Of a stretch of 64,000 bases of DNA, positions 37,054 to 63,956 are shown piece by piece. Made by a program: the position numbers and the translations under genes. The DNA is from Hemileia vastatrix (taxonomy: Eukaryota; Basidiomycota; Pucciniomycetes; Pucciniales; Zaghouaniaceae), in NCBI GenBank assembly GCA_030280995.1, contig JASXTE010000001.1:4521001-4585000 (forward strand). Reading direction: 5' to 3'. Under the pieces are notes generated by a model. That model ran no database searches and was not told the DNA's origin. It saw only the letters and a program-made list of their open reading frames with translations. Position 1 is the first letter of the stretch; every line of letters begins with the position of its first letter.

Positions 37054-37557
37054 CATTTTAAAGTCTTGGGGGACTAAACCTCAGTTTTAAGTCTTGGTGG
37101 ACTAACAGCCCTCATTTTATAGTCTTGGGGGACTCAAAAACCCTCAGTTTATAGTCTTGGGGGACTCAAAACCTAAATCAAAAGACAGAACCAGAGATCA
37201 AAACATTAAAGACCAAAAAACAAACTAATATTCTGGGGTAACTGTTCTACAGAGAAGCCAGCTCATCAGTTACCCCCACACTTGCCTTTAAAAAATTCAG
37301 AGACTCCCCCTTGGATGCCCTCTGCCAGAATCACACCAACTCCACATTATCAGTTTATAGTCCTGAAGGACTCAACCAACAGCTATCCTCAGTTTATAGT
37401 CTTTGGGGACTATCCACAGTGTTCAGTTTAAAGTCTTGAAAGACTACATATCTGCAGAAGTAATAAAAAAATAAAAATCTTGAAGCAATCCTTAAATAAC
37501 CAGCCAGTTTAAAGTCTTGGAGGACTACCAGTCTTCAGTTTAAAGTCTTGACAGACT
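37054..37557 (-). repeat. nine AGTC-N6-GACT hairpins with TAAACTG-type tail
   Basis: On the minus strand each unit reads AGTC, six bases, GACT, then NTAAACTG or a close variant. Units lie at 37054-37075, 37082-37103, 37113-37134, 37145-37166, 37351-37372, 37390-37411, 37424-37445, 37505-37526 and 37536-37557. All stems are perfect while loops vary. Further units are at 40081-40102 (one mismatch) and 40341-40362, and one at 63935-63956 in the plus-strand relative. Confidence 0.85.
37235..37276 (-). repeat. GGGGTAACTG/CAGTTACCCC hairpin, copy 1
   Basis: A perfect 10-bp inverted repeat encloses 22 bases. Related copies with the same loop context are at 40174-40215, 40434-40474 and 63827-63867. 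Confidence 0.8.
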
Positions 37558-37569
37558 ATCCACATTTTG

Positions 37570-37578
37570 CATATAAGG
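37570..37578 (+). promoter_or_regulatory. TATA-like element of the antisense gene
   Basis: CATATAAGG lies about 130 bp before an ATG at 37709, with a pyrimidine-rich leader between (ACTCTTTCTTCATTATC, CTTTTCTCTTCATT). The arrangement suits a fungal promoter reading opposite to the retrotransposon. Confidence 0.4.
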
Positions 37579-37708
37579 GCAGAGAAACCTCTATTCACAG
37601 TGCTCCACAGCCAACCTGCTGAACTTCCACTCTTTCTTCATTATCTACACATCACTTATAAAATTTTTATTCATCTCTTTTCTCTTCATTATTTTTCCTT
37701 CACAGATC

Positions 37709-39249
37709 ATGGCTGAATCCCCAGACTTTTAACCATTGGACCTTCCCTGTTTCACTGCTTCAAAGGACTATGCTTTTAAACAGTGCACCCGCATGTGCAG
37801 GCCTTGTACTTTCACTCTTTCAACTCCTCAGGCCAGAATCTATAACAGAGCCTGCGATTCCTGCAACTCTCAGAAGAAATGATGTTACAGAGACCACGAC
37901 TATCCAATACCTCTGCCTTCACCTTCACACAAATATATTTCTAGATCTCCTACCAGGTCACCAGAACTTGGACCTTCTTCCGCTCCTTCCAGAAGATCAC
38001 ACCATTCTATTCCCAAATCACTCCCTAAAAGACCTGCTTTATCTTCTAAAGAATCTGCTTTTAACTCATCAAATTTGGCCAAATCAGCTTCAAAATCAGC
38101 TCCCAGGCTGCTAGACTGCGTCCAGGCGGCCCGCCCGCCTTGCCAGAAAGCAAAAATCTGGCTCAAAACTCCCAAATTCAGCCAAATAACAGCCAAAATA
38201 CACCATTAAACACCAAAAACTCTATGCAACTACCTCCTTGTGCTCCCAGAGCCATGCGTACACATAAAATTTCTTCCTCAGACAACCCCAAAAATTCCAA
38301 CATCTCTAGAAAACTTGCCAGAGGACCTCCTGAAAACACCAGAGCACGCAACACTGGTTCCAAACAAAAATCTTCTGTTACTTCAAGAAGAACTAACTAC
38401 ACCTCTCCTCTGGCCGCCAATTATTCCTCTGATAGTTCTCTTTCTTCTAGATCTTCATCAAGCAAATCACAATCAGCTTCCAGGTCACCTTCTCCTGATC
38501 CTTCCTTAAATAACCCTGGTACTCCACCACCAGTGTCCAACCCAACTGGGCCAAGCAATAATAATATCCACAACAACAACAGCAGCCCTGCTTCTCTAAC
38601 CAGGCAAAAGGAACTCCCTTCTTCTCCTACATCTTCTCAACACCATTTAGAGAATGATCATGAGAATCCATACCTCTATCTGGTTTATCCTTCTTCAAAA
38701 TCAATTCAGCTTTCTTCAACAGCTCAAATCCTGGCTGCTTACAAATTTGATGAGCTCCCAATCTGTAAGTACCAAATTAATAAATCCAATTTCTTTAACA
38801 GAGAACAATTACTGATCTAATTCTTCTGTGTAGTTGGAACCCGACCTCCTGAAACTACAATTGATATTGGCCAGCCTCTAGAAACTACCTTAATTCTGGA
38901 TTACACCCACATGAAACAACACCTAAGCATGATGTGTTCAAAAATGATTAAATCCTTTTCCCTCCACGGTCTGTTGAATGACTTTGAAAAAAATCTGAGA
39001 AAACAGCTCCTTGATGACCACTGGAAGATGTCTAGAATAATAAAGCACACCTTCCAACACTCTAACCCCACTTCTTCCACTTCTTCCAAAAAATTACCTT
39101 CAACTTTGGTCCCTGACCATTACAATCCATATACTCTTTCCAGCCACCTACACCACAAAGAACACAGTTCTTCTTCCAATACTAACAAAAAGCAAAAACG
39201 CCACCATAATCCGGACCAACCGCTGGAGGCTTCTTCTTCCAGACATTAA
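37709..39249 (+). pseudogene. antisense spliced gene inside gypsy, function unknown
   Basis: ATG at 37709 opens a Cys-rich start (CTRMCRPCTF ... RACDSCNSQKK), broken by TAA at codon 8 and a TGA. A basic Ser/Pro-rich segment (SRSPTRSPELG) follows. After a frame change near 38140 the frame is open (RRTNYTSPLAANYSSDSS, Ser/Asn-rich) to a GT-AG intron at 38765-38833 (69 nt). Splicing joins ELPI to GTRPPETTIDIGQPLETTL exactly in frame with the last exon: MCSKMIKSFSLHGLLNDF, KQLLDDHWKMSRIIK and a basic Ser-rich tail, stop at 39247-39249. The frame-preserving intron argues for a real gene. I recognise no family. Confidence 0.5.
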
Positions 39250-39309
39250 AATAAACAAGAAAGAAATTAATAAGTCAATAAATAGAGAGAACAATAATAA
39301 TTAACAGAA

Positions 39310-39455
39310 ATATATATAAAAAATTTGTTTTATTTTTATTTTTATTTTTATTTTATTTTATTTTATTTTTTTATTTTATTTTATTTTATTTTATTTTTAT
39401 TAGTTTTTTATTATTTATTTTATTTTTATTTTTATTTATTTTAAACTACTAACAT
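39310..39455. repeat. TTTTA/TTTAT low-complexity tract
   Basis: About 145 bp of (TTTTA)n and TTTATT repeats lie just after the antisense gene stop. Confidence 0.85.
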
Positions 39456-39559
39456 ACTAAAAAAAACTTGAAAATAAATAAAAAATTAACCAAAAATATG
39501 AGAGTTGAAAAATTAAAATGAAATGGATGATAATAATAACATGAGACAAATAATAGTTA

Positions 39560-39810
39560 CTAATGGTATCCCCCAGCCAGTTGATGAGCTTATCCCCTGA
39601 TACCTTACCCATATCCAAGTGCACCTTGAGGTGGATACACTGTTCAAAAATTTTTAAATGAATTGAAATAAAATATAAAGATGAAATAAAGAGAAATTGA
39701 GAAAATAATAAGAAAAAGAAAGAAAATAGCATTTCCCAGCCAATTGATGAGCCTTTCCCAGCCAATTCTTTCCCACATCCAGGTGACCCTGATGTGGTGA
39801 CACCATATAA
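39560..39810. repeat. two diverged copies of a CCCAGCCAGTTGATGAGC unit
   Basis: CCCAGCCAGTTGATGAGC at about 39571 and CCCAGCCAATTGATGAGC at about 39737 each precede a small inverted repeat: TATCCA ... TGGATA and CACATC ... GATGTG. No protein is seen in this interval or in the gap to 40560 apart from the hairpins listed. Confidence 0.5.
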
Positions 39811-40080
39811 TATAGTTTTATTATTTTTCCTGCTTTATATCCTAATAACTCCCATAAAAAAATTAAAAGAAAAAAAAGAGAAAAAAAAGAAAATAACCTA
39901 AAGCTACTATCTAAGACAACCATAGACAAAAAAATTAAGGAAAAGAAAAAGTCCAGGTCCATAGAAAGTCTAGTACAAAGAAACAATCACTGGGTGGGCT
40001 CCCTCCAATAAGTAAAAATGATGGGAGACCACCAGTGATCCACTACCAAAACCAAAGAAGTCCATCTTGAACCAGTAAGC

Positions 40081-40609
40081 CAGTTTAAATTCATAGTGGA
40101 CTTAAACCCTGAATAACAAAAACCAGAACTAGGATTCAACTAGGACAAACAAAATACTTGAGACAGACATTTTGAGGTAACTGTTCCACAGAGCATCCAG
40201 CTCATCAGTTACCCCCACACTTGCCAAAATTAAATCTAGAATCCCCCCTGGGTACCTTCTAACAAAACACAAAATCCAACACATTAAATCAAAAACCAAT
40301 AAGGGTGAAGTGTCCAGCACATGAAGATAAAAAGAATTTCCAGTTTAAAGTCATAGAGGACTAAAAACCTGTGAAGAAAAAGCAATACTAGGGTTCAACC
40401 AAATTAAGAGAAGGGGTTGGAAACAGACAAACTGGGTTAACTGTTGTTAGAGCAGCCAGCCCATCAGTTACCCCAACACTTTCCAAAACAAAATCTAGAA
40501 GCCCCACCCATGGGTACCTTTAAACAAAAGTTTCCAACAAAACAGATTCACAGCATCACCCAAAATCTAAATTTAAAAAATGGCCCATAGTTTATCCTCA
40601 TTGCGGAGT
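40081..40609 (-). repeat. mixed hairpin cluster 3' of integrase
   Basis: It contains AGTC-type hairpins at 40081-40102 and 40341-40362. GGGGTAACTG-type hairpins are at 40174-40215 (GAGGTAACTG arm) and 40434-40474 (GGGTTAACTG arm). One CCTC-type unit is at 40588-40609 (stem end GAGT, one mismatch). The order shows a duplicated ~260-bp block. Confidence 0.75.
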
Positions 40610-40695
40610 CAATCTTCTTCACTTCTTGTGCCTCTTGGGTAAAATCTCTTCACCTGATCAGCAGCCACTCTCTTCTTTAAGACTGAACCATCTAA

Positions 40696-42280
40696 CTACT
40701 CCAAAACATAAGAACCTCCAGACACCTGAGATCTGAATCTGTAAGGTCCATTCCATCTGTCAGCAAACATCTTTCCCCACTTACTCTCCAAACTTCTATT
40801 ATACACCAAAACTAAACCACCAGGTTTCAAGGGATTCCTGAGTCTATGAGCTAACTTCTTGTCCCAGTATCTGACTGATTGATTTCTTATCTCCATCATT
40901 CTAGAGTATTCCTTCTCTTGACATTCCTCTCTACATTCCAACTGTTACAACCTGGCACAGAGAAAATCTTCTGTTGAGCATATATCATCTTAATCAATTA
41001 CAAGATAAGAGACAGCTTCCAAATCCACTGGTAGAACAGCTTTCTTCCCAAAAATTAATTCATAAGGGGAATAGCCAGTTGTCCTTTTTACAGTGACTCT
41101 ATCAGCAAATAACACCAAGGCTAAATAATGCCTCCATTTTTCAGCACTATCTCCACAAATTTTCACCAAAGAATTCTTGATAACTTGATGGCCTCTTTCA
41201 ACAATGCCTTCAGCTTCAGGATAATAAGGTGTAGCCACTCTGACTTTAGAGCCAATACTTACCACAGCTTCTTTAACTTCAGCTTTAAACTCTGGACGGC
41301 CATCAACAGTTACCAACTTCATTAACCCATACCTAAACACCCATTCCTTCTTCAAAAATTCTGCCACGTTTTTGGCAGTTGAATTCACCAGAGGCACCGC
41401 TTCAACCGAACCAGAAAAATTATCCCTGGCAATATTCAAGTATTTATACCTGCCCTCTTTGATATGGACAGCATCCAAACTGACTCTTCAAAACACAGTT
41501 GGTTCACCAGTAGCATGGCCAACCTCTTTAGGTTTCAAATGACTTCTTCTTTGAAATTCTTCACAAGATTGAACCCAACCCTGCACAGCCAACTTCATAC
41601 CTGGCCACCAAAATCTATCTGCTACTCTTCTATAAGTCTCCCCAAAGCCTCTATGGCCAAGGTCTTCATGAAAAGACTTCAAACCCAATTCTTGACCCTT
41701 CTTCTGAGTCACCACAACTTGAGGATTGGGATGTCTCTTCCTCATCAACATCCTTCCTGACACATAAAAGCCAGGACTCTTCTTCTTGATTTCCACCCAA
41801 GTATCATCATTACAAGTATCTGGTCTCTCTAAGGTTAACAGATATTCAACCATAATAAAATAAAACCCAATCTGACCCCAGGTCTCATATTCAAAATCCA
41901 ACAAAAAATATCCAAGGGTAAAACCCTGTCATCAAAATCTCCAGTGTACACATGAGCAACACGACCGGCCCATCCAGGACACCAATCCCTAAACTTTTGC
42001 ACCTCCTTTTTCTTCCACTGAATTTTAAAAGAGTCCAGTTCACCAACAAAAACATCATTCTCCAATTTTGAGCCATCCCAAACAACAGCCCCATCTTCAT
42101 CAACAAAAACATCCTGATCACCAGAATAAAGATCAGAACCATCCAGTTTAACCTCTTGGTGGAGGTGAGAGGAATCATCCAGTTTAGCCTCTTGGGGGAG
42201 GAGAGAAAAATCTTCAGCACGCATTGTTCTGGCCCTAACCACTGGAACATCCTTATCAAATTCTTCAGAATCAGAATCAT
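40696..42280 (-). pseudogene. gypsy integrase (zinc finger, core, C-terminus) and linker
   Basis: From 42280 leftwards: acidic linker (DSDSEEFDKDVPVV), two LPQEAKLD/LHQEVKLD peptides encoded by hairpin motifs, then GHRGFGETYRRVADRFWWPG and SCEEF, an HHCC finger with the last Cys changed to Phe. The core MDAVHIKEGRYKYL has the first Asp, VTVDGRPEF the second Asp and YPEAEGIVERGHQ the Glu. TTGYSPYELIFGKKAVLP follows, and after a frame break the C-terminal VYNRSLESKWGKMFADRWNGPY to 40696. Frames change near 41880, 41480 and 40990. It would integrate the element's cDNA. Confidence 0.85.
42144..42201 (-). repeat. two CCTC-N6-GAGG hairpins with TAAACTG tail in the RNase H-integrase linker
   Basis: Units at 42144-42165 and 42180-42201 read, on the minus strand, CCTC, CACCAA or CCCCAA, GAGG, then TTAAACTG or CTAAACTG. 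They are translated as LHQEVKLD and LPQEAKLD. The plus-strand relative has two at the same place (61793 and 61850). Confidence 0.85.
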
Positions 42281-43457
42281 TGTCAGTACAGTCTAGTATA
42301 TAAGTATGATATAATAGTGTTATTTTATGGTCCTACTACTTATTAATAAATGATTTAGTGATTAAACCTCAGGGGAAGACTAATAGAATAGTTATACTCA
42401 AATAAAACTCACAATACTTGGATTTAAATGCGTGCTAGTGGTGGAAAATAGAAGAATAAAATATAGTTATAGCTATTATAAAGATAATATCAATTTATAA
42501 GGGCTTTATAATATATTTCTGAATACTAATAATTGTATTGTAGTGTTTGTTTGAAGTGTAGTAATTGAATGATGATAATAAACCGTTAAAATCCCTCCTT
42601 ACTTATACCCAAATCCACTGGAGTGCACAGACCTTCAATCCAGATGATGTCACTGCTATCCCCGGCAATTACAGCACTGTGAGGGCCCATCACCTCCCCA
42701 TGGCTTCCACTTCAAGCAGTTTCAACACCCAGACCTCCAGTAAGGACCCTCCATCAATATTAATAATAACACAGAGTCATACCATAAATAGAAAACCCAG
42801 ATAAAAGCGGATACCATAAAGAAACAGGTAAAATAAATGATCAAAAAGAGATTTAATGAAACTAAAAGCATATAAAGGAAACAAATAAAATGTCCAAGCC
42901 CCCAAAAACATCCCCAAGCATCCACATTAACCCAGAAACATCCTTCCAACCCATAAATCCGTGAATAACCATCCAAGGAAGTAATTTCAGTTGTCCAAAC
43001 TGGGTGTATGCGCCTGATATAGGTGTCTATGCTTCTGTAGGCGTTGTGAGTCCACTGATTTCGTCCATATGACCTAAAATAAGCAGAAAAACAAAGTTTA
43101 TAGGCTATTAAGGGGCTAAAACCCACTTATATACCTAAATATACATAATATACTGCATATTTCACTGAATATGAGATTTATGTATACATATAAGCTTATG
43201 TATGTCAATAATTACTTCATATCACTTAAGATAAGTATATTATGACTCCATTAACACCTTAATAAGTATTATTAGGCCATGGATAAGCTATTTAAACTAT
43301 TATAAATTATATAATAGAATAATAATTATATATATATATAATAAAATAATATATATTATTATTTTAACCTTATTTTTAAGATATAAGCTTAATCTAGTTA
43401 AGGTTATCTTATTTTAAGCATAAGAAATACTCAGTCCTAAGGATATTTAGGCTGACA
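42281..43457. repeat. solo LTR (1177 bp) with perfect ATCAT target duplication
   Basis: It starts TGTCAGTAC and ends AGGCTGACA, flanked by ATCAT at 42276-42280 and 43458-43462. Removing it with one ATCAT restores the linker frame PPTDDDSDSEEF, matching PPTEEDSDSEEF of the relative at 61690. Its interior has no recognisable coding. Orientation is not determined. Confidence 0.9.
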
Positions 43458-44836
43458 ATCATCATCTGTGGGTGGTATTCTTGATTATCCATCTGGCATC
43501 CTAAAAGTCTTAACTGGCTTGTGAACCAGGTCAAAAGACAAATGTTGAATAAATGCCACCCACCTAGTCATTGGATCATTTGGAAGACTAGGTGTGTTGA
43601 TCATTTGAGCCAGAGATTTATAATCCACCTGCAGCTCAAAATGCTGCCCCCACAAAACAGTTTGTAGCTTTTCAAAATTTTTGCTACTCCACACAATTCC
43701 AACTTTGGTTGAGAATACCTAGATTCCACCTCATTAAAAACTACAGACTCATAACTTACTGGCCTTACCTTCCCAGATTTATCATCCTGAGACAAAACAG
43801 CACCAGCAGCAATATAACTTAAGTCCACTGCCAGATAAATTTTTTCAGCTTCCTTTCCATAATCCAACTTGTGAAGAATAATATCTTCACCTACTACCTT
43901 CTTCAATTTCTGTAAAGCCTCTTCACACTCTTCAGTCCATTCCCACTCTGCATCTTTCCAGGCCAAACTTCTCAAGGGTGAAGCCAACAAAGAAAAATCT
44001 TTAATAAAAATCCTGAGGTACACACTAACTCTCAAAAATCCCCTAAATTCAGTAGTATTTTTGGGCTTTGGCCATGACTGAATTTTATTAACTTTCTTCA
44101 TTGCCATAATCTTTCCCTCCTTACATACTACATGACCCAGAATTTCCAGAGCAGGAACACAACAACAAAACTTTGACCCAGAAATGGTTGAACCAGCCTC
44201 TTCAATTTTAAACAATACTCTCTCTAGAGTAATTTCATTTTCCCAAAAAAATCTCATTATTCTTGGGTTCTCCTTCAGCACTTCATTTCCATAATCAGTG
44301 GAGGGTCCTTTAATTCCACTGTCATCAATAAAAATACCAGCATGAGTCGGAAACTCATCCTGTAAAATCCAAGCAATTTGAGCTTGATATACTGAAACTA
44401 AATTAGTTGCTCCTTGAGGCAACCTAGTAAGCTGAAATCTTCCCAAAGGAGTCTCAAAAGTTGTGAGAGGCCTTGAATCTGTATGAAGTTCCCTCTCATC
44501 ATAACCACCCATAATATCACCCAAACCATAACACACCCTTCCAGCAAAAGCTTCAACAAAATCCTCTGCACTTGGTGGCATACCAGCGTCCTTGATAGTG
44601 ACTCTATTTAAGGCTCTAAGATCATGAACCACCCTCAACTTTCCATTCTGCTTTTTTACACAGAAAACCGGACTTGAGTAGCTGGAAGTCGATTGTTCGT
44701 ATAACCCAGTCCTGACTCTTTCCCTAACAATCTCTACAAAATCCTCTCTAATAGCGGCTGGAATTGGAATAGGTTTGATTTGCCAAGGATTCATCTTCTG
44801 AATCACATCTCCTAAAATTATGCAGTTTATCCTCAT
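43458..44836 (-). pseudogene. gypsy reverse transcriptase and RNase H
   Basis: Reading leftwards from about 44836: PWQIKPIPIPAAIRED, TGLYEQSTSSYSSPVFCVKK, LRVVHDLRALNRVT, RVCYGLGDIMGGYDER, LTRLPQGATNLVSVYQ. The catalytic segment GIFIDDSGIKG (Y replaced by F) and LEILGHVVCKEGKI follow, then RNase H with IYLAVDLSYIAAGAVLSQ and SRYSQPKLELCGV. The frame breaks near 43690 and continues LQTVLWGQHFELQVDYKSL to the solo LTR. It is close to the plus-strand copy at 59858-61700. A frameshift, an in-frame TAA (PDG*SR) and upstream loss of an open frame make it inactive. Confidence 0.88.
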
Positions 44837-44910
44837 TCCAGGGGCCCAAAAATTGATCTTTACAATCTTATTTCTTCAAAAATTTGTGCAGTTTAACCTC
44901 ATGCTGAAGG
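44823..44910 (-). repeat. two CCTC-type hairpins before reverse transcriptase
   Basis: Units at 44823-44844 (stem end GGGG) and 44889-44910 (stem end AAGG, a G-T wobble) read GAGG then ATAAACTG or TTAAACTG on the minus strand. The surrounding ~65 bp is tandemly duplicated (CCCAAARATTGATCTT). Four equivalent units precede RT in the plus-strand relative. Confidence 0.75.
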
Positions 44911-45556
44911 CCCAAAGATTGATCTTGATGATCTTTACAAAAAGAATTCTTTTTTTCTTTTTTAATTATCTTCAGATTTTTTTCTTGCTTTTTTCTCAGT
45001 TATCTTGAAATTTTTATCTTCTTTTCTTGAGTTTTCTTCCATCCTACAAAAAGAACCAAGGGTTTCCCCAATTCTCACAGGCGTGGCCAAAGTAATGTTT
45101 TTGAAAGGCGTAGAAGAAACCCTAGCAGTGCACAATTGGGAGGACTTACTTTTAGAACCCAATCTCACCACTCCACAGCATTTCTGCATATCTTTCAATA
45201 AAGATATATAGCCAATCTTCTTTTTTGAACTTGAATTAAAAATAATTGAAAATCGTGAGAGAGAACAGATACTTGATAAAAAACATGAAGAATACTTGCA
45301 GAGAAGAGAAACATTAAAAAGTGAAAGTTGAAAATCCACTTGGTATATCTCCAAGGGAGCTGACCTACTACAACCTGGGATTTCCTTATCTTAAGGAGAG
45401 GTTGTAGCACTAGGGCAATCAGCCCTTATTACTCTAAAAAAGACAGAGTCTCACAAGAGCCTGAACCACACTCCAAAAACCAGAGGCGGCACCCACTTCT
45501 TTTCTTCTCCTACAAAAATCCATGCACTGGCACATTGAAGAAAAGCCAGGCCTGTT
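44837..45556 (-). other. gypsy spacer between protease and RT
   Basis: A remnant reads LEIYQVDFQLSLFNVSLLCKY, matching HLEIIQVDSQLFSVNITWECKY in the plus-strand copy at 59370, so this segment was once translated. A 9-bp inverted repeat CTACAACCT ... AGGTTGTAG encloses CCTTATCTTAAGG at 45368-45407. Confidence 0.5.
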
Positions 45557-46180
45557 CTACCAACCATCATCTCCAGGAGATGATAACCTCATGTGAAGCC
45601 TCCTCTCATCTTCACCGGTAAAATCCAAACTGATTCCCATGTCAAACTGATAACCAATTCTTGCCTGGAAATCCATCAAGAATGGTCCACCCAAAACTAC
45701 TTTTACATTACCTTTGGCAATGTAAAAATGAACCTTTCCGGAGGCCTCACCGACATCCAGCTTTACAAATTCAGCTGTCCCAATCAACTCAGTGACATTG
45801 CCACCAATCCCTCTTAAACATCCACCAATTCCTGTCTTTATGGGGAGGTCCAGATGAGTAGCCTCAAATAAAGAAATTAAGTTAATTTGAGAACCTGAAT
45901 CCACCAATTCCCTAGCCTCCCTGCCATTCAGAGTGACATTGACATAACCCAGAGGAGCAGAAAAATGAGTTTCCAACCCCTCACCAGACTTCTCAGCAGA
46001 ATCACAAATGTATTCCACCTCCCAGAAGAAACCATTCTCCTGGTCAACAACTTTTTTTGTCTATCAGCCAACCCAGGACTGATAGCATACAATTCTCCAT
46101 AAGAAAGGGAGACCTGACCCTGATTCATTCTTTCCAGAACCAAGTCCATAACATTAGATTGGCCAGAAAACTACTGGCCT
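45557..46180 (-). pseudogene. gypsy aspartic protease
   Basis: VTLNGREARELVDSGSQINLIS carries the protease DSG motif, followed by GIGGCLRGIGGNVTELIG and KVVLGGPFLMDFQARIGYQF, the usual flap and C-terminal motif of retroviral-type proteases. Upstream residues (MNQGQVSLSYGELYAISPGLADRQKK) lie in another frame near 46000. It would cleave the polyprotein. I could not find an equivalent in the plus-strand relative. Confidence 0.8.
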
Positions 46181-47804
46181 GAAATATTAAGCCCTTGGCT
46201 TCACTACCTTGGTCCTAGAAATCTCCTGAGGACCAGAACCACCAACAGATTTTCCATCAACAGGAATCAAACAAGATCCCTCACCAACATCTCTAACTCC
46301 AGAAGGCTTTGGCAATGAAGCCAAAGGGACATCCTCCTCTGAGTCAGAATCAACATCCATTGGCATTGGCTCACCATTCATGTCCAATTCACCAAAACTG
46401 GGGGGTGCATATCAGCAATCCCCTTCTGCATCTTGTACAGCTCCTCTTTGCTGTGCTTCCTCCTGGCTGCACTCAGCTTAGGTTCCACCTTTGAAGATTT
46501 AGGCTTTGGTTGGGCCTGAGAACTGCTCTTAGGGCTTCCCACCTTTCCAGCTTCAACATCATAGAAACCAGCCAAGCATTCACCACTTGACTGTCCTCCA
46601 CAAGAATACAAATCCAACCCATCATAGGAAATAGAAAGAGAGACTTTATTAACCTCCTTCCCTTTTCCCTTGACATCTTCATCTGCCTTAGCAGAAGAGC
46701 CCCCTGATCAGGGATCTCCTCATAGCTTGGCCTCCTCTGATTGAGACCATTTCTTCTCCTGACCAAATCAACAGGAGCCTGCCCCTCACTGGGCTTCACA
46801 AATGAACCATCAGGGAATTTGAACACCCAGCCATAAAACTCCACCTTTCTTTCTGACACATCTCTGTTCAGAGCCCAACAATCATTGGACTTGTTACCCC
46901 TCCTGCTGCAACAAGAGAAGACCCAAGGATCACTCCTACCAGCCCTCCTATCAAAATCTTTAGGCTGAGAAGGAGCCCTAATGACCTTCTTAGCCTCCTG
47001 AAAAAAATATGTAGCTTTTTTGTCAGATCAGTCAACTGCTCCACCACTTGGTCCCTCTCCTGCTTGGGAAACACCACCATATTCTTCTCTTCCCTCTTCA
47101 CTCTACTCTCCTCTTCACCAAAGCCTCACTGACCTTGCTGACAAATTTTGCACACCCCTCTTAATAGGTGTCCACACCAATAACTTCAAATGGGCCTCCA
47201 CAGCCTCATTCACCTTGTCCAAGGCAGGAAACTTCTAGTCCCCATTGGAAAGATTTTTCATCAAGTCCTTCCTTGACAACTCCTTCAACACATCCATCCT
47301 GACATCTTTTGCCAGGGCAGACCAAAAAACATCTTTGGCAGCATTTTCATGTGCCAGCTCCTCCACTTCCACCAAGTATTCTACCACAGGATCAAATTGC
47401 AGCAGAAACTTCCTGTAACTGAGTAAGTTACCAACACCACCTTAAGACTGCCATTTACTGACAACCTTGTTCAGATCCGCCATAGTGAACCTGACACCCC
47501 ATCTATCCACCATCTCCCTGCACAGCAACTTCCAATCCCTCTTCTTGTAGCCAGACATGTCCTCAACATCCTTCTCCACTGCCCTATCACCAATGAAGAA
47601 AATGATCTGCTTCACCATGTCCAGGTAAGAAGCAGCATCCACACCAGCAGCAGTTTCATATTTCTCCAGAAACCACTTCACGTCTTCCCCATTAAACTTG
47701 GTACCATCTCAAGTTTTAATCCTCACACACTCCCTAACCATCACAGAAGGAGGACCATCCCCCCCACTGACAGTCACCACAGGAATAGCAGAACCAGAAG
47801 CCAT
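46181..47804 (-). pseudogene. gypsy gag
   Basis: The likely ATG is at 47804 (MASGSAIPVVTVSGGDGPPS). A TGA near 47707 is followed by KWFLEKYETAAGVDAASYLD and GYKKRDWKLLCREMVDRWG, homologous to RYETAAAIDVKQIRFFIL and KDQDWRKLKMEMEKRW at 58160-58300. A degenerate zinc knuckle (CCSRRGNKSNDCW, His changed to Asn) lies near 46890-46920, then VEFYGWVFKFPDGSFVKP. The C-terminal acidic region (MDVDSDSEEDVPLASLP) ends near 46190. Several frame changes. Capsid function is inferred from position and the knuckle. Confidence 0.75.
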
Positions 47805-47878
47805 TCTTCCAGACCAATATCACCAAAAAGGACCAACCAAAGACAAAAGAGATTCCAAAGAACTAGCAGGTTCTACCA

Positions 47879-47893
47879 CCATGTTGGGCACCA
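47879..47893 (-). other. gypsy primer binding site
   Basis: TGGTGCCCAACATGG on the minus strand follows the 5' LTR end GTCTACA after four bases. The plus-strand relative has TGGCACCCAACGTGGGG at 57866. Confidence 0.7.
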
Positions 47894-47897
47894 TAAA

Positions 47898-48983
47898 TGT
47901 AGACAATCCTATAGTACTAGCTATAGGCCTTGACCAAGGGAGTTGGAGAAAATCCAGAAAGAAAATCCCCTGTCCCTTTTGAAAAATATAAGTGAGATTT
48001 ACCTGCTACATTAAACTGGTTCCTTTTGTTTAAAGCCCCTTTTCCAATACACTTGACTGCCTGATCAGCCAAGAAAGTAGTCTTTAGACAGACTACTAAA
48101 CCAAAGAACTGAAATGTAGACCAATGTCCACACCAGAGAAAGCAATGATACTTGATGTAGGTTGCAAATCCACACCAGAGACAGCAATAATACTTGATAT
48201 AGCTTGCAAGACTACACCAGAGAAAACAGTTGCCAAGGTTGAGTTAAATGAAGAACTAACCTTGCAACAAACACGGCCAATTATGGCCAGAAAACAGTGA
48301 AAACTGAGTGAGGAACCAGGATATCACCTCCAGATGGTTTTATGATGATTAAGGTTGCCTCAAGCTGTCTTATTCACTATATATACACAGACCACTATCT
48401 AAGAGCCCATGCACACCAACAAATTTGGCGTTTCAGAGCACCAAATTGCATAAAACCCCTCTATAAACGCTTCCTAGCCTTCTAGCACTGAGGCTGGTGG
48501 TCTGCCTGCCTGAGGCAGCCGGGCCACCCTGAAGCCAGAAAACCTTCAAAAACCTCCAAAAATACCCAAAATACTTAATAAAATAAGCTACGACTACTAA
48601 AACCTTTAAAACACATTATTAAGCTATAACAACATTGTGACATGAAACATAGAGAAAAATTAGCTTATTCTAATGGCACTAAGAGCTTAACCCTAAGACT
48701 TAAGGTTAGCCCGTAAAACACAAAAAACAAAATTAAACAGCTATCTTTTAAAATGAAAAATGAGAAATAATCTCTTAAATACTTAGAATATGAAAAATGT
48801 CAACAAGACATAAAATATAGAGAAACACCGGGGCTATCCAATGGTAGTACCCACATCTTTCAGTCCCAATATTCACAGAATATATCCAGAAAAACACCCA
48901 ATTATTAAAAAATGCCATTTAAGACATATCAAAACAATGCCAAATAGACCAACAAAGGGCTCTGCCAATGTTGGAAGACCACA
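47898..48983 (-). repeat. gypsy 5' LTR
   Basis: It pairs with 35236-36336. The minus-strand start TGTGGTCTTCCAACATTGG is at 48983. A TATA-like ACTATATATAC at 48376-48387 is the likely promoter for the leftward transcript. The GC-rich block near 48480-48535 has lost the perfect palindrome of the other LTR. Confidence 0.9.
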
Positions 48984-49009
48984 CCGTGTGGGGAACACCT
49001 AGCTCCATG

Positions 49010-49285
49010 CATACTTAACTATTACTTTGTTGCATATTACATCACCGTGTCATTTACACCTCACATTGGATACTGATTTTGGTAAATGTTGGGTACAAGT
49101 AAGTATATATACTTACAGATACTTACTTTGCATCATTAACTTGCACCTCTCCCTGCTAATTTTTTATCATTTTGCCTTGCTCATCAAGATACATAATCAC
49201 ACCCTTGATTCCACCACTGTTTCACACATTATCTTTTCAATTCACTATACTCACTACTCATCACCAAATTTTATCAATTTTCACT
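49010..49285 (-). repeat. ~270-bp inverted repeat arm, right of the gypsy element
   Basis: CATACTTAACTATTACTTTG through CACTACTCATCACC is the inverse of 34880-35150. Confidence 0.75.
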
Positions 49286-53040: not shown

Positions 53041-53042
53041 GC

Positions 53043-56140: not shown

Positions 56141-56264
56141 GCAAAATCTGAGCGCACCGGCCCTTAATCCTTTTCCGCGGTTCCATTTCCTTTGTTCTTT
56201 GAAACACACAAATACATATTATATTTTAGCACTACCTACTGTGCTAACTCCCTTTGTCCTTCTT

Positions 56265-56360: not shown

Positions 56361-56429
56361 CCTGCGTCTTGCAGTGTTTCCTTCCTCCATCTTCTATCTT
56401 CTTCTCTTATTTTCCTTTATATATTTCAA

Positions 56430-56775: not shown

Positions 56776-56779
56776 AGTT

Positions 56780-57865
56780 TAGTATGGAACCTAAGTACGT
56801 AAGTGGAGTTATTACGGCGTACAAGATTGGCGTTATTATTTTTTTATAAAAGGGTTTTATTTAATTTATTTGAGTTTTAAATATGAAGAAATTGGTCAAG
56901 AGCAAATGCCTACGTGAAAACAATTTATTTTACAGAGAAAACTTATTTTTACGATCTGAAGAATTTATAAGTATCAAGTTGAGTCACTCAAGAACCTTGG
57001 GAAATTTTCCCAGAATTTTTACTATTTTTCTTATATTTTTAAATGAATTTTAAAGTTTTATAGAAATATTTACGTTTTCAGAAATTACTTAAATTTGATG
57101 AATTTTCACGGGGTAATTAGAGCTGCGCAGACTACGAAAATTAGTTTGGAATATAAAGAGGAAGTAGTTCTATCATGTGTAATTTTTCTAGGTTTTTTAT
57201 TATAGTTTTTAAGGTTCTAATTGAGTCCGGAAGTCCGGACGGACTCCGCTTCGACTCTGTACGGGCTCCGGATTGACTCTGGGAGAGCTCTGGAGAAGAA
57301 AACTTAGGCACGTGACTAGGAATACTTAAGCGCCTCTCAAACTCGAAATTGAGAGGGGGGGACACATCATACAGCTTAATCTTTAACCACCACGGTCTCA
57401 TTTTTTATTACTCAACAAATTAAAATAAATTTGTAATACCCTTATAACTTTATATTTATATATAACATTTTAGAAATACTACTCAACAATTTAAAACACA
57501 CTTCATACAGGGTATCTTTAGAAAGGTCTTCATGGCTGAGACTCGATTATTGCTGTCTCATAAAAATTCAAATTATTATAAAAACATAAAAGTCAATCTT
57601 TTCAGATCTTTCACTGGTACACCTTAATTGTTTTTATCAGTATTTCTTTCTCAACAGCCACTTTTATTTAAATCTCAATAAGCGTTAAATATTTTAGAGT
57701 TTCATTATTTTTTATCAATCAGATCCAAGTAGACTGGTTAGCTTAGTGATTTAGAATTCCCATTTTGTTATTTTATTGGAAGGACGGGGTTTTCCACTAA
57801 ATCCACATATCTCCTCCAGATTCTGCTTACAGCAAGGCGACTGTAAGAGTTTACCTTACCATAGT
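56780..57865 (+). repeat. probable 5' LTR/leader of the plus-strand gypsy
   Basis: Non-coding sequence ending just before a primer site at 57866. It contains a TATA-like AATATAAAGAGG near 57150 and a GC-rich hairpin GAGTCCG ... CGGACTC at 57223-57246. The LTR start was not located because the partner LTR is outside the window. Confidence 0.45.
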
Positions 57866-57882
57866 TGGCACCCAACGTGGGG
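57866..57882 (+). other. gypsy primer binding site (plus-strand element)
   Basis: TGGCACCCAACGTGGGG is a typical tRNA-complementary primer site and corresponds to TGGTGCCCAACATGG at 47893. Confidence 0.75.
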
Positions 57883-58041
57883 TTCGAAATCTCTAGCTTT
57901 TTCTAGGACTTTTTTTGGGTCAAGGACTTTGTTAATAGCCTTCAAGAGGCTTATTCTCTGGAACTCTAATTGGATTTTTTTTATTGGCCTGCAAGAGGCT
58001 TGTTATTTTAACGGTTGTTAACGCTTTTCTTATGTTTTGGG

Positions 58042-59184
58042 ATGTCTTCTACTATTGAAACTGCTGTGTTGGCTGCTGGTGTAGCTGTTAGGGCATCAGT
58101 AAGGATTGTATCTTGGGTTGGGCCCAAGTTTTCTGGAGATGATTTAGAAGGATTTTTACATAGGTATGAAACTGCAGCTGCGATTGATGTGAAGCAGATT
58201 AGGTTCTTTATTTTGGACAGAGAGGTGGAAAAGGAGGTTATTTCTATGGATGGTTAAAAAGATCAAGATTGGAGAAAGCTCAAGATGGAAATGGAAAAAA
58301 GATGGCCAAAAGTTTATTCATTGGAGGATCTAAAGGATATAGCTAGGAAATGGGAATCAAAAGGTGGTGTAACATCTCTGCATCAGTATCATCAGTTTAT
58401 GGTTGAATTTCAGGTGGTTCTGGATTATTTGTTGGAGTATGAAATTTTATTTCATGATAATGCATCAAAGTATGTTTTTTGGGATGCTATGGGGGAAAAG
58501 GTTAAGAAAGATGTTTTGATGGTGCTTATTAATGGGAATTTAATGAAGGATCTCCCAGATGGAGAAACTAGGATTCCTGGTATGGAGGTGCTAAAGAAGG
58601 CTATTTTAGAACATCTGGATACTCATAATTCTGTTGATTTGGACTCTGGAAAAGAGGTTTTTCTTGCTCAAGAGATAGAAGAGGGCGGTTTAGAAGAATT
58701 AGCTTCTGTTGAATTTTTGGAATCAGCCATTCCTGAAGATATTATTTTTGTTAACAATTCTGTTGGGAAAGAAGAGATTTTTGAAGATGAAGATATTGTT
58801 GTCATTAATGACAAAATTTTGGATGATGGGGATAATTTTGTGTTGAATGATTTGAAATCAGATTTAGAGGATTTTTTGCCTCAGGTTTTGTCTTCAGAAG
58901 CAGAGACTGTCTGCAATGAAGATATGGATATGGTGGATTTGTTACAATCTCAGGGAGAGATTGTTAAGGAGGATATGGTTTTCCCTGCACTAATAAAGAG
59001 TGTAGTGGCATTTGATAATAGAGTGCATAAACTGTATGCACTCATATTTTGGAAAATGGTTGTTTATTTTTTATGTCCAATGGTAGGACAAATTATGGGG
59101 GTTTATTTTTGGGTTTTATGGAATCGGTGGATAAGCCCTTGGGGCAAAATTATGGATTATCTCCAGGGGATATCAAGAATTTAA
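58042..59184 (+). pseudogene. gypsy gag (one stop codon)
   Basis: ATG at 58042 (MSSTIETAVLAAGVAVRA) starts a single frame to 59184 with one TAA at 58255-58257, where the minus-strand relative has a Tyr codon in GYKK. Regions: GPKFSGDDLEGFLHRYETAA, DWRKLKMEMEKRWPKVYSLED, YHQFMVEFQVVLDYLLEYE, VLKKAILEHLD, then a long acidic tail (EEIFEDEDIVVIND, DLEDFLPQ). No zinc knuckle was seen. It would form the capsid. The acidic tail and following residues replace the knuckle and protease found in the relative, suggesting an internal deletion or divergence. Confidence 0.75.
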
Positions 59185-59186
59185 TT

Positions 59187-59208
59187 CCTCCGAAATGAGG
59201 ATAAACTA
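59187..59208 (+). repeat. CCTC-type hairpin after gag
   Basis: CCTC CGAAAT GAGG ATAAACTA lies just after the gag stop and before the next reading frame. Confidence 0.8.
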
Positions 59209-59240
59209 CCTAAACTGGGCTGAAATTTTCTTTTATTGTT

Positions 59241-59903
59241 ATGTCTTCAATTTATTCAGGATTCAAATTATTATGGAAGCCCTCATTTTTTGGGGTAGCA
59301 GGGGCTGATCACTCTAATGTTGTAATCTCTCCTCAGGATGAGATCCCGGATTGCAATAGGTCAGCTCACTTGGAGATAATTCAAGTGGATTCTCAATTAT
59401 TTTCTGTTAATATTACTTGGGAGTGCAAATACGTTATGGACGTTTCTATATGTTTATTGGATTTACCCTGTTTTTCTATAAAATTTAAAAATGGTGAAAA
59501 AGGCAAAATGGGCCAAATTAGGTTGGATAAAAATTGGAAGGGTATGTTTTTGGACCTCCAGCAAGAGGGTAAACTGCGAAAATCTCATCAAAATCCAATA
59601 AAAAATCTCGGTATAAGTAAAACACAAAAAAATAATTTATGTGAAAATGTTATTCCGGACCTCCAGCAAGAGGTTAAACTGCAATTATCTCCTTCTATTT
59701 TGGACCTCCAGCAAGAGGGTAAACTGCAAATATCACATCAAAACCCAATTAAAAATCTCAGTATAATTAAAACACAAAAAAAAATTTTTGTGAAAATTCA
59801 ATTCAGGTTCTCCAGCAAGAGGTTAAACTGCCAACTTTCTTTACGGGTGATTTACTGTTGGATAAGGGAAGCAAAGGTGTTGGAAAATCTGTTTATAAAT
59901 TAG
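59241..59903 (+). pseudogene. gypsy pre-RT polypeptide with LQQEVKL repeats
   Basis: ATG at 59241 opens a frame with SNVVISPQDEIPD, HLEIIQVDSQLFSVNITWECKY and MGQIRLDKNWKG, shared with the spacer of the minus-strand relative. Three DLQQEGKL/DLQQEVKL peptides follow, separated by KSHQNPIKNLGISKTQK-like spacers. An A-run frameshift near 59780 then joins it to the RT frame, where a fourth LQQEVKL is encoded. Each repeat peptide coincides with a CCTC-type hairpin. Function unknown; it could be a linker or processing segment. Confidence 0.5.
59555..59830 (+). repeat. four CCTC-N6-GAGG hairpins with TAAACTG tail before RT
   Basis: Units at 59555-59576, 59660-59681, 59705-59726 and 59809-59830 share the loop CAGCAA. 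The last has TCTC for CCTC, keeping a wobble pair. The tails read GTAAACTG or TTAAACTG. Confidence 0.9.
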
Positions 59904-61720
59904 ACGAGGTAAAGGAGAAAAGGGTAAAATTTAAAAATGAAATAAAATATTTTTCTAATTTTTCTTATTCCGATTCTGGCGATGAAGAAGATTCATTTGA
60001 TGAAATTTTTAATGGCGATACAAAAGTAAATTTTTTACCTCAAGTTTATTTAGATGTGGACGCAGCCAAATATAAGAAGGTAGAAAATAAAGTTCGACCT
60101 ATTAATGAACCGCTACCTGCTGAATTAAATCCACCTTTGAGAAGACCAAGGTTATCAAGAGATCCTTATGAAAGTCCCTTGGTAAAGAATCTGCCTGAAT
60201 TTTCTGAGACGTCAAGAATCACTTTTGAGAGACTGGGTGTTGTTAATTTTGGACCTGATGGTTGGTTGTCTGGAGAAGAGAAGAAGTTGTTGTTGGATGT
60301 GATGGTCAAGCGAGAGAAGGCCATTGCTTTTGTAGAAGAGGAGAGGGGTGTGTTGAAGCATTCCTATGGGGAGCCTTACAAGATTCCTGTGGTATGTCAT
60401 GAACCGTGGCAGCAGAAACCAATTCCTATTCCGGCTGCATTAAAAGAAGCTTATATTGAAGTTGTCAGAGAACGGATATGCACTGGACTGTATGAGCAAT
60501 CAACATCAAGTTATTCTAGTCCAGTATTTTGTATCAAGAAACCAAATGGCAAGCTTAGAGTTGTTCATGATCTTAGGGAATTAAATAGGGTTACAATAAA
60601 GGATGCTGGGATACCACCTAGTGCTGAGGAGTTTGTTGAAGCATTTGCAGGGAGAGTGTGTTATGGTTTGGGAGATATTATGGGTGGATATGATGAGAGA
60701 GAGTTACATCCGGACTCAAGGCCTCTAACTACATTCGATACGCCACTAGGACGTTTACAGTTAACAAGATTACCACAAGGAGCAACAAATTTGGTTGCAG
60801 TTTATCAAGCTCAGATGGCTTGGATCCTTCAAGAGGAAATTCCACAATATTCTGGAAACTTTATAGATGATGGAGGAATTAAGGGACCAACAACCGACTA
60901 TGATAACCAGGTGTTGGAAGAGAATCCCGGGATACGCAAATTCATTTGGGAGTTTGAAATTACATTAGAAAGAATCTTGTTTCGAATTGAAGAGGCTGGT
61001 TTAACTATTTCAGGTTCAAAATTTTCATGTTGTGCTCCAGCCTTAGAAATATTAGGCCATGTGGTATGTAGAGAGGGTAGGATTATGTCCAAGAAGAAAG
61101 TTAACAAAATTCAGTCCTGGCCAAGACCCAAGAATACGACTGAAGTCAGAGGGTTTTTTAGGCATTTGCGTATATGTTAGAATGTTTATTAAGGACTTTT
61201 CTTCATTGGCAGCTCCATTGAGACGGTTAACTAGAAAGGATGAAGAGTGTGAGAAGGCGTTTGTGAAGTTGAAGGAGGTTGTAGGGAAGGATTTAGTCCT
61301 GCACAAGTTGGATTATGGAAAAGATGCTGGTAGAATTTATTTAGCAGTTGATTCAAGTCAGGTTGCAGCTGGGGCTGTTTTGTCTCAGATGGATAAAGCT
61401 GGTTACATCAGGCCAGTTAGGTATGAATCTGTAGTATTTACTGAGGTCGAATCAAGATATTCTCAACCAAAATTGGAATTATGTGGTGTGGCGAAAATAC
61501 TGAAGAAACTTCAGCATATTTTGTGGGGGCAACATTTTGAGTTGCAAGTGGATGCGAAATTGTTAATCCAGATGATTAATTCCCCAAGTTTACCGAATGC
61601 ACCCATGACGAGATGGGTAGCTTTTATTCAACATTTTTCATTTGATTTAGTTCATAAGCCTGGCAAGACTTTTACTATGCCAGATGGTTTATCAAGGAGA
61701 CCACCCACTGAAGAAGATTC
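59850..61720 (+). pseudogene. gypsy reverse transcriptase and RNase H
   Basis: The frame from about 59790 to 61180 carries PWQQKPIPIPAALKEAYIEV, TGLYEQSTSSYSSPVFCIKK, LRVVHDLRELNRVT, RVCYGLGDIMGGYDER, LTRLPQGATNLVAVYQ, the catalytic NFIDDGGIKG and LEILGHVVCREGRI. One extra T in a T-run near 61155 shifts the frame, which resumes with GICVYVRMFIKDFSSLAAPL. RNase H follows with IYLAVDSSQVAAGAVLSQ, SRYSQPKLELCGV and LWGQHFELQVDAK. A single-base correction would reopen the whole of RT-RNase H-integrase, so this copy is young. Confidence 0.88.
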
Positions 61721-63530
61721 AGACTCAGAAGAGTTCGATGAAGATATACCTATTATCAAAGCCAGCACTAAAGGAGCTGAAGACTTTCCATACCTCCCCC
61801 ATGAGGTTAAACTGGCAGGACTATTGTGTTTAGATTATGGTAATGATGACCTCCACCAAGAGGATAAACTGGAAAATAGTTTTTATGTTAATAAAGGTGT
61901 TGGAAAAGGTGTAGATAAATTTGGTAGAAAGGAGGTAGAAGAAGATGTGGTGTATGTAGAGGAAGATGGATTGGTACTGTGGGATAGTAGTAAATTAAAG
62001 AATGGTGTATATGTTGGAGAATTAGAGAATTTAAATAAAAGGGTGGATAAAGAGAAAGAGGTATTTTCAAATACGGTTTACAAAGGATCCAAAGGTTCAG
62101 AAGAAAAACGTCGACATAGCTCGATTAAAGATTTATTTAGGGGTCAACAATTATTGGCTCATTCATGTGCAGGTGATATTGGTGATAGAGAAGTCTCTAT
62201 TGATGTTATATTAATCGATTTTCAAGATGAAGTCTGGGGTCAGACTGGATTTTATTTTTTGTTAGTCAAATATTTGTTGACTTTAGAGAGGCCAGAAGAG
62301 TGTGAAGACAATGAATGGGTGGCTATCAAGAGGAAGTCATCTACGTTTTACCTATCTGGTCGACGTTTAATGAGGAGAAGGTATCCAAATCCTCAAGTAG
62401 TTATAACTCAACAGAAGGGGCAAGAATTAGTTTTTAAATCACTGCATGAAGATCTTGGGCATAGAGGCGTTGGAGAAACGTATAGAAGAATTTCTGATCG
62501 ATTTTGGTGGCCTGGCATGAAGATGGCTGTTAAACAGTGGGTTCAGTCATGCGAAGAATGTCAAAGACAAAGTTATTTAAGGCCAAAAGAACCTGGACGG
62601 GCGACCGGTGAATATACGCTCTTTGGGAGAGTTAGTTTAGATGCCGTTCATATAAAAGAGGGACGGTATAAATATTTAATAGTGGCCAGAGATGATTTAT
62701 CTGGTTGGGTAGAGGCAGTGCCTCTTATTAATTTAACTGCCAAAAATGTGGCAGAATTTTTTTTAAATAATTGGGTATATAGGTATGGGGTGATGAAGTT
62801 GGTAACGGTAGATGGAGGTCCTGAATTTGGGACAGAGTTTAAAGAGGCCGTATTGAAAGTTGGATCAAAGGTTAGGGTAGCAACCCCATACTATCCTGAA
62901 GCTGAAGGCATGGTTGAAAGAGGGCATCAAGTTATTAAGGATGCTTTGGTTAAAATGTGTGGGACAAGTGCCAAAAAGTGGAGGCACTATTTACCTTTAG
63001 TTTTATTTGCTGATTGAATCACTGCCAAAAGGACGACCGGATTTTCACCTTATGAACTTGTTTTTGGACAGAAAGCAGTTTTACCGGTTGATTTAGAAGC
63101 TGAATCATATCTTGGAGTTGACTGGGACACGGTCAAAACTACTGAAGAATTATTGTGTGCAAGAATGATGCAGCTAGAAAAGAAAGAAGAATATTTAGAA
63201 AAGGCATATTCGCAGATGATGAAGATCCGAAATCAATCAGTCAGATATTGGGATGAGCGGTTGGCACATCGATTAAGGAAACCTTTGAACCCAGGTGATA
63301 TGGTCCTGGTGTATAATAGGAGTTTGGAAAGTCAGTGGGGAAAAATGTTTGCAGATAGGTGGAAAGGACCGTATAAAGTTAAGGAGCAAGTTTTTGGCGG
63401 TTCATATGTGCTAGAAGAGTTGGATGGAGTATTATTGAAGAAGAGGGCAGCGGCCGATCAAGTGAAACGGTTCTATCCTAGAGGCACCAGGAGTGCCAAA
63501 GTCATCCTCCACAATGAGGATAAACTATGA
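61721..63530 (+). pseudogene. gypsy integrase (single TGA)
   Basis: In the same frame as RNase H: an acidic linker with LPHEVKLA and LHQEDKLE hairpin-encoded peptides, then GHRGVGETYRRISDRFWWPG and SCEECQRQ (intact HHCC finger). The core is LDAVHIKEGRYKYL, LVTVDGGPEFGTEF and YPEAEGMVERGHQ (D, D, E). TGA at 63015-63017 replaces an Arg codon present in the relative (ADRVTVKRTTGYSP), consistent with CGA to TGA. The frame continues TTGFSPYELVFGQKAVLP and VYNRSLESQWGKMFADRWKGPY to NEDKL, stopping inside a CCTC-type hairpin motif. Confidence 0.87.
61793..61871 (+). repeat. two CCTC-N6-GAGG hairpins in the RNase H-integrase linker
   Basis: Units at 61793-61814 (loop CCCCAT) and 61850-61871 (loop CACCAA) have tails TTAAACTG and ATAAACTG. 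They sit at the same protein position as 42144-42201. Confidence 0.88.
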
Positions 63531-63620
63531 TATCTACAAAATTTTATGGATTCCTCCGCAATGAGGATAAACTATGATTTTTATAAAAATCTTATCAACC
63601 TCCGCAACGAGGATAAACTA
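63506..63620 (+). repeat. three CCTC-type hairpins after integrase
   Basis: Units at 63506-63527 (loop CACAAT), 63553-63574 (CGCAAT) and 63599-63620 (CGCAAC) all have the tail ATAAACTA. The first contains the integrase stop as CTATGA, where TGA overlaps an ATG. The second repeats that overlap at the end of a 16-codon frame. Confidence 0.88.
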
Positions 63621-63826
63621 TCTTCTTTTTATCAAAATACTTTACTATCATTACACTGCATATGGGCGACAAAACTGTGATGATCCATAACAAAATGCGA
63701 GAAAACCTTCTTTTAAAATTTTTAAAATTCTTAAAATATGAGAGAAGATAGTGTTGGAAAATTTTAAAAATTTATTGGAAGAAGTGTTCACAGGGGAACC
63801 TTCTTAATTTAATATTGGCAAGTGTG

Positions 63827-63867
63827 GGGGTAATTGATGGGCTGGCTGCTCTATACACAATTACCCC
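63827..63867 (+). repeat. GGGGTAATTG/CAATTACCCC hairpin
   Basis: The 10-bp arms differ from the GGGGTAACTG/CAGTTACCCC copies by a compensating pair. The loop (ATGGGCTGGCTGCTCT...) matches those of the other element. Confidence 0.8.
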
Positions 63868-63934
63868 ATAATGTTCGTTTCCAAATTTTTCCCTGTTTCT
63901 AGTTGAATCCTGGCTTTGTCTTTTAATTATAGGA

Positions 63935-63956
63935 AGTCCACTAAGACTATAAACTG
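63935..63956 (+). repeat. AGTC-N6-GACT hairpin with ATAAACTG tail
   Basis: AGTC CACTAA GACT ATAAACTG is the plus-strand equivalent of the nine-unit array at 37054-37557. Confidence 0.85.

Follow-up and report, generated by a model that had tools for sequence, protein, structure and literature searches.

Single-stranded RNA viruses carry many small packaging hairpins, dispersed across the genome and sharing a common recognition motif. RNA localisation and packaging of the yeast element Ty3 require sequences in pol and in the untranslated regions (UTRs), for which the portions of the sources available to us identify no exact sites, and localisation is inversely related to the ribosome occupancy of pol (PMC11381356, PMC4974528). 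A review adds that the cis-acting sequences of Ty3-type packaging lack a clear definition and that multiple sites scattered along the RNA may play a part (PMC4974528). In Rous sarcoma virus (RSV), an RNA stability element sits just downstream of the gag stop; it is one structured stretch, at least 155 nt long, and similar behaviour is suggested for the 3' UTRs of pol and src (PMC2925335). Here we describe a 22-nt unit repeated in two Ty3/gypsy elements of the rust fungus Hemileia vastatrix, within a stretch of 64,000 nt (assembly GCA_030280995.1, contig JASXTE010000001.1, positions 4,521,001 to 4,585,000 of the forward strand) that we call the window. A first-pass annotation, made from the letters alone, had reported about 27 units of one layout on the element sense strand, and our recount gives 27.

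The packaging hairpins of single-stranded RNA viruses differ from these units in host, replication and protein partner, and the likeness is a mere resemblance. The units share more with the Ty3 signals: they belong to a Ty3/gypsy element and lie in pol and the UTRs, and their presence in pol and the 3' UTR of the genomic RNA strand is the placement expected of a Ty3-type POL localisation or packaging signal. They differ in that the available Ty3 descriptions contain no repeated 22-nt hairpin (PMC11381356, PMC4974528) and in that the function of the units is putative. With the RSV element they share a position downstream of the gag stop; that element is one stretch of at least 155 nt with a tested function, whereas the units are many sharp-edged 22-nt copies with a putative one (PMC2925335). 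Searches of open-licence papers listed none with a description of such a motif, and the words "hairpin", "stem-loop" and "motif" did not turn up in a term search of the available text of a 2025 paper on rust transposons (PMC12210899).

A repeated 22-nt unit on the sense strand of two elements

Each unit consists of a 4-nt arm, a 6-nt loop, a second 4-nt arm, any nucleotide, and TAAACT(G/A). All units are on the sense strand of their element, which is the minus strand of the window for 16 of them (37054-44910) and the plus strand for the other 11 (59187-63956). Pairing and tail, which the first-pass annotation described as constant, are so in most units: 22 of the 27 form four Watson-Crick pairs and two include one G-U pair (TCTC/GAGG, CCTT/GAGG); three are incompletely paired (CCCC/GAGG, ACTC/GAGG, AGTC/GAAT), and the tail differs by one letter in three. 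The stem classes CCTC/GAGG and AGTC/GACT differ at two of their four pairs (pair 1, C-G or A-U; pair 2, C-G or G-C), and not at three as had been stated. Further stems occur elsewhere in the genome, namely GGTC/GACC and the rarer TGTC/GACA and CGTC/GACG.

A covariance model trained on 49 units from the window and from related copies recovers 26 of the 27 window units at E <= 0.5, all on the sense strand and with no other match; the unit that it misses is CCCC/GAGG at 44823-44844. No Rfam family matched positions 34800-64000 at the gathering score. When exact tails are taken as the starting point, a fully paired stem precedes 9 of 13 on the sense strand of element 1 and 10 of 13 in element 2, none of 6 on the antisense strands and none of 14 in the rest of the window, where one case pairs by wobble only. 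The possibility that antisense or unrelated sequence is equally rich in units, which the first-pass annotation had named as one of two that would undo its proposal, is thus contradicted here, as it is by the lack of antisense units in 14 sampled loci (below). Chance is excluded because the mean number of paired units in 300 dinucleotide shuffles was 0.013 for element 1 and 0.007 for element 2, never more than 1 in any shuffle, compared with the 9 and 10 observed.

The genome (747.6 Mb, 791 contigs) was searched for exact matches, summed over both strands, using patterns in which the 6-nt loop length is built in and each pattern read backwards as its own control; the counts are lower bounds. 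CCTC/GAGG occurs at least 46,760 times (control 1) and AGTC/GACT at least 53,199 times (control 17). Stems of the CTC/GAG type with A, G or T as first letter and any last letter give at least 10,041 matches (control 34), and those of the GTC/GAC type with C, G or T as first letter and any last letter at least 25,132 (control 30). These four mutually exclusive patterns total at least 135,132 matches, against 82 for the controls, with AGTC followed by GAC[ACG] and CCTC followed by GAG[ACT] left uncounted.

Units recur at matching places in related copies

Relatives and units were sampled from one contig of this one genome, as 20 stretches of 10 kb picked solely by exact CCTC/GAGG matches. Similarity to gag, protease, reverse transcriptase (RT) or RNase H-integrase of the same gypsy clade was found in all 20, so the confinement to one clade raised in the first-pass annotation stands as far as sampled: the units accompany one gypsy clade. 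The positions said to match between the two elements also recur in the 20 loci, at the protease-RT spacer, the RNase H-integrase linker, the region just past integrase, and far 3' arrays. Unit spacing in the protease-RT spacer is mostly 45, 105 or 66 nt, all multiples of three; in the linker it is 36, 57, 33 or 66 nt, and at or just past the integrase stop mostly 45 to 56 nt, often 47 or 52. The pre-RT units of element 2 (59555..59830) are spaced by 105, 45 and 104 nt, the last (59809-59830) being the TCTC/GAGG wobble unit.

We counted units with at most one mismatch in the 14 loci that have a protease match (L069, whose match is partial, was left out). The 33,105 nt before the protease end contain none and the 106,895 nt after it contain 240; each copy holds 9 to 25, none of them antisense. 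Locus L065 has a second array on the opposite strand, without a pol match on that strand within the fetched stretch, and L077 has units past a gag-like region without a protease match. In L065, L069 and L076 the linker stems are GTC/GAC where other loci have CTC/GAG, and the post-integrase units remain CTC/GAG. This is a two-sided replacement at a matching place, for which duplication from elsewhere is possible.

In L066 and L067 the gag-protease and pol frames stand in a -1 relation and share an overlap of 19 nt (524-3154/3136-5928 in L066; 505-3132/3114-6827 in L067). A slippery sequence, U UUU UUG in L066 and others or U UUU UUA in L068 and element 1, precedes a large hairpin, 4 of whose 31 pairs show two-sided changes. 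This region spans 3136-3250 in L066, and 45430-45325 (-) and 59286-59396 (+) in the window. Passage from gag-protease to pol probably uses a -1 frameshift here and, given the frame relation and the slippery site, the units of the sampled copies would sit in RNA that few ribosomes should reach.

Searches for more distant relatives returned little. A related-locus search gave one distant locus among the genome contigs (L028) and no relative among the viral contigs, where a pattern scan found 27 stretches with a single match each and no array. A protein search with the long linker gave nothing at E <= 1 among 539 candidates.

Conservation at the nucleotide level

The first-pass annotation held that peptide selection alone could not account for units found in both coding and non-coding sequence, and codon usage bears this out. 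A codon-blind peptide pattern, applied to frames of at least 150 codons, found 87 places, of which 85 are units and 2 were set aside as non-units. In these in-frame units the first codon reads CTC for 73 of the 75 leucines, against a background of 5%, and GTC for all 10 valines (background 11%). The acidic codon is GAG in all 74 glutamates (43%) and GAC in all 10 aspartates (18%), one unit having a lysine instead; lysine is encoded by AAA in all 84 cases (47%), with AGA in one unit; and the last leucine uses CTG 69 times and CTA 16 times (13% and 6%). The 85 units come from related copies and hence are not 85 independent observations. Non-coding arrays with different spacing preserve the identical 22 nt, the TAAACT tail is conserved to the same degree as the arms, and the edges of the unit are sharp, with flanking positions carrying little information (0.06 to 0.23 bits). 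Because coding copies have near-fixed and mostly rare codons and non-coding arrays repeat the same 22 nt, selection acts on the nucleotides of the unit.

Probable pairing of the arms

Pairing of the two arms in RNA is likely, though not proven. Matched combinations at pair 2 occur at least 78,331 times (GTC/GAC) and 56,801 times (CTC/GAG) in the genome, and mismatched ones are scarce (GTC/GAG 333, control 82; CTC/GAC 461, control 162). Since decaying copies rarely undergo C-to-G transversions in any case, this scarcity indicates that no mismatched lineage was amplified, and not how strongly each copy is constrained. A set of 266 units, matched with no condition on pairing at pairs 1 and 2, includes 149 with G-C at pair 2 and 102 with C-G. 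For covariation we used 345 of 426 rows, having dropped those with three mismatches, and clustered them by their flanks to 118, 71 or 38. By corrected mutual information, pair 2 leads at two of the three thresholds, and pair 1 is within the top five at each. With the 118 representatives, the stem pairs take first and third place among the 231 column pairs. Second place goes to the non-stem pair 2-14, which is first or second at all three thresholds, as expected if entire classes differ. Pair 1 does covary among G-class units, where the Watson-Crick permutation p is < 0.004 at every threshold.

A smaller set of 49 distinct units was also compared with versions in which the 3' letters were shuffled. 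Of the 118 clusters, 64 have at least two members and supply 52 distinct units; the set comprises 47 of these plus two L069 units added by hand. The five omitted are probable non-units, and their omission favours pairing in both the covariance model and the shuffle results. The share of cells that pair is 95.4% in this set and 75.1% in the shuffled versions, and by three of five measures the set exceeds every shuffle. Class C variants that pair by G-U only in the sense RNA outnumber their mirror images (3,024 against 2,228; controls 36 and 50), which is weak evidence because many copies share one event.

Several results weigh against pairing. Pair 1 does not covary in the C class (p 0.58 to 0.65), and two of the five measures in the 49-unit comparison were no better than shuffles. 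In a home-made, R-scape-like test with a tree-preserving null, covariation was not significant (pair 2, E = 0.16; pair 1, E = 2.7), which leaves both stem pairs above the E < 0.05 that is the R-scape-type standard for structural RNA. The covariation claimed in the first-pass annotation is thus seen in the ranks and against 3'-letter shuffles, and does not pass cleanly in the larger alignment once the tree is considered. Same-branch switches at pair 2 number 1, 12 or 9 according to the tree, and co-change at pair 1 is not significant on any of three trees (p 0.27, 0.13, 0.39). For class A the excess of sense-only wobble is small and the chance background large (1,615, control 370, against 1,439, control 738), and single-step variants within families look neutral (16 mismatches, 8 sense G-U, 6 mirror G-U). 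A subclass with pair 1 broken has itself been amplified: among 100 listed of the matches with A, G or T before CTC/GAG, 78 are ACTC/GAGG, the others being 20 TCTC/GAGG and 2 TCTC/GAGT. Local folding is weak: of five micro-hairpin segments four have positive z-scores, and native flanks give 203 units an average pair probability (0.417) no higher than shuffled flanks do (0.431, p = 0.57).

The carrier elements and their surroundings

Both elements have the Ty3/gypsy domain order RT-RH-IN (PF00078, PF17917/PF17919, PF00665), the PF00665 matches being slightly under the curated cut-off, and element 2 also matches PF17921. The named protein relatives high in the match list are mainly from rust fungi (Puccinia coronata, P. 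striiformis, Austropuccinia psidii). The long terminal repeats (LTRs) of element 1 are 91% identical and have TG...CA ends. The flanks immediately outside them (34883-35168 and 48982-49268) are inverted repeats of each other, with 87% identity, and elsewhere in the window 5707-17115 and 22378-31809 form a long direct duplication of about 90% identity across several pieces.

Element 2 may be a chimera. The gag-like open reading frame (ORF) at 58285-59184 has just 30-48% identity to its matches in the 20 sampled loci, and a search of the ORFs preceding the RT of this element found no protease family. Its far 3' array is beyond the window end and outside our view (Table 1).

The 3' region of element 1 contains an antisense ORF at 37662-38820 (+), with a counterpart at 8052-9224 (-) of locus L064. 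Protein-level similarity to it was found in eight other sequences, with main pieces 50-83% identical, and three pieces of the region had no Pfam match at E <= 0.1. A 40-nt hairpin module (GGGGTAACTG...CAGTTACCCC) recurs in the 3' regions of both elements, at 63826-63868 (+) and at 40428-40507, 40169-40248 and 37230-37309 (-). Each module lies about 70 nt upstream of an AGTC unit, and the intervening sequence resembles, by eye, a 3' splice site.

Table 1. Elements and 22-nt units in the window.
Feature	Position	Strand	Remark
Element 1, Ty3/gypsy	35236..48983	-	LTRs 35236-36336 and 47898-48983
Element 2, Ty3/gypsy	58000..64000	+	truncated by window end; 5' limit nominal
Three AGTC/GACT units, one-letter tail departures	37054-37075, 37082-37103, 37113-37134	-	covariance model
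AGTC/GACT unit about 70 nt past hairpin module (in 37230-37309)	37145..37166	-	covariance model
Far 3' array, five AGTC/GACT units	37351-37372, 37390-37411, 37424-37445, 37505-37526, 37536-37557	-	covariance model
AGTC/GAAT unit, pair 2 mismatch	40081..40102	-	covariance model
AGTC/GACT unit 3' of hairpin module	40341..40362	-	covariance model
ACTC/GAGG unit immediately past integrase ORF stop, pair 1 mismatch	40588..40609	-	covariance model
Two CCTC/GAGG units, RNase H-integrase linker, in frame (LPQEAKL, LHQEVKL)	42144..42201	-	covariance model
Two pre-RT units, CCTT/GAGG wobble (44889-44910) and CCCC/GAGG mismatch (44823-44844)	44823..44910	-	
CCTC/GAGG unit 2 nt past stop of gag-like ORF	59187..59208	+	covariance model
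Four pre-RT units	59555-59576, 59660-59681, 59705-59726, 59809-59830	+	covariance model
Two CCTC/GAGG units, RNase H-integrase linker, in frame (LPHEVKL, LHQEDKL)	61793..61871	+	covariance model
Three CCTC/GAGG units, integrase ORF end and beyond	63506-63527, 63553-63574, 63599-63620	+	covariance model
AGTC/GACT unit about 70 nt past 40-nt hairpin (near 63826-63868)	63935..63956	+	covariance model

What the units may do

Our tentative preference, held with slightly less than even confidence, is that the unit acts in cis on the RNA of the element, as a repeated site at which a protein docks and which steers genomic RNA to packaging. The motif, its copy number, strand and placement, and its conservation at the nucleotide level are established; from these we infer a folded RNA, a bound protein, a scarcity of ribosomes and an outcome in packaging or localisation. 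In the RNA of this rust-fungus Ty3/gypsy clade, a mini-hairpin of 4 bp with a 6-nt loop, followed by N-UAAACU-R, would be the candidate docking site. The putative docking protein could be the nucleocapsid part of the element's own Gag or a host RNA-binding protein, a function that the first-pass annotation had already suggested. The sites would lie where ribosomes should be scarce, in pol, reached through the probable -1 frameshift, and in the long 3' region, so that translation would not strip the bound protein, and many weak sites may jointly provide the avidity that directs the RNA to assembly and packaging. In favour of this reading, a CCHC knuckle is present in 9 of 22 scanned sequences, neither window element being among the nine. 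It counts against it that no protein partner has been assigned to the unit. A more elaborate form, possible but held with less assurance, is a modular RNA code, in which one 22-nt word, present about 9-25 times per copy outside gag-protease and in matched-arm variants (CCTC, AGTC, GGTC and others), would be read by one protein that separates RNA for packaging from RNA for translation.

The placement in RNA with few ribosomes fits docking and packaging, and it also fits a shield against decay after the gag-protease stop. Units could, by analogy with RSV, act as RNA stability elements that protect the gag-protease and pol stops, each of which precedes kilobases of apparent 3' UTR, from nonsense-mediated decay. 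No unit lies upstream of the protease end in the 14 loci, as expected of an RSV-type position downstream of the gag stop; the first unit is about 260 nt past the end of the gag-protease frame in L066, L067, L070 and L075, and in 13 of 14 listed loci the first post-integrase unit has a stop no more than a few nt away. The location of the RSV element and the comparable behaviour suggested for pol and src 3' UTRs agree with this; that the element is there a single structured stretch, and not a 22-nt repeat, does not (PMC2925335), nor do far 3' arrays located 1-3 kb past the last stop. We consider such a shield, the chief competing reading, rather unlikely, and prefer docking, by a small margin, because the units continue through pol and into the far 3' region and Ty3 localisation needs pol and UTR sequence.

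Weak RNA folding, the palindromic arms and the fixed 6-nt spacing in the searched patterns would also suit a DNA-level site, where a dimeric protein would recognise the two inverted arms, CTC-N6-GAG or GTC-N6-GAC, with a role in transcription, silencing or chromatin, and the far 3' array of element 1 is immediately upstream of the conserved antisense ORF. Such a site is improbable: the orientation of units is uniform in the 14 loci, the tail TAAACT is conserved as strongly as the arms, units are absent from gag-protease, and the arms switch jointly between classes, whereas half-sites could vary singly. Tandem arrays, regular spacing and the neutral appearance of within-family variants recall a passive repeat, a functionless 22-mer spreading within elements, for instance by template switching. 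This is very unlikely in view of the fixed rare codons and of the matching places retained, between unconserved flanks, in copies whose pol is 48-96% identical to that of element 2. We give least credence to selection at the protein level for a peptide motif, [LV]xx[ED]xKL, whose non-coding copies would be debris. The 85 of 85 in-frame units share a phase, which is the one used by the linkers and spacers shown, but they do so by construction of the peptide pattern, and the shared phase is a weak signal because one of the three phases always contains a stop. Synonymous sites are fixed, non-coding copies preserve the motif at spacings that are not multiples of three, and the peptide is lacking in 117 of 120 listed homologs, the other three having it near the N-terminus, outside the linker. 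Ideas of a splice site, of complementarity to rRNA and of a loop-tail pseudoknot were dropped after inspection by eye only.

This gypsy family explains the occurrence of one 22-nt word more than 100,000 times in a single genome. For docking and packaging, the units would provide candidate sites for Ty3-type RNA choice that are short, numerous and uniform, and so open to testing with short synthetic arrays.

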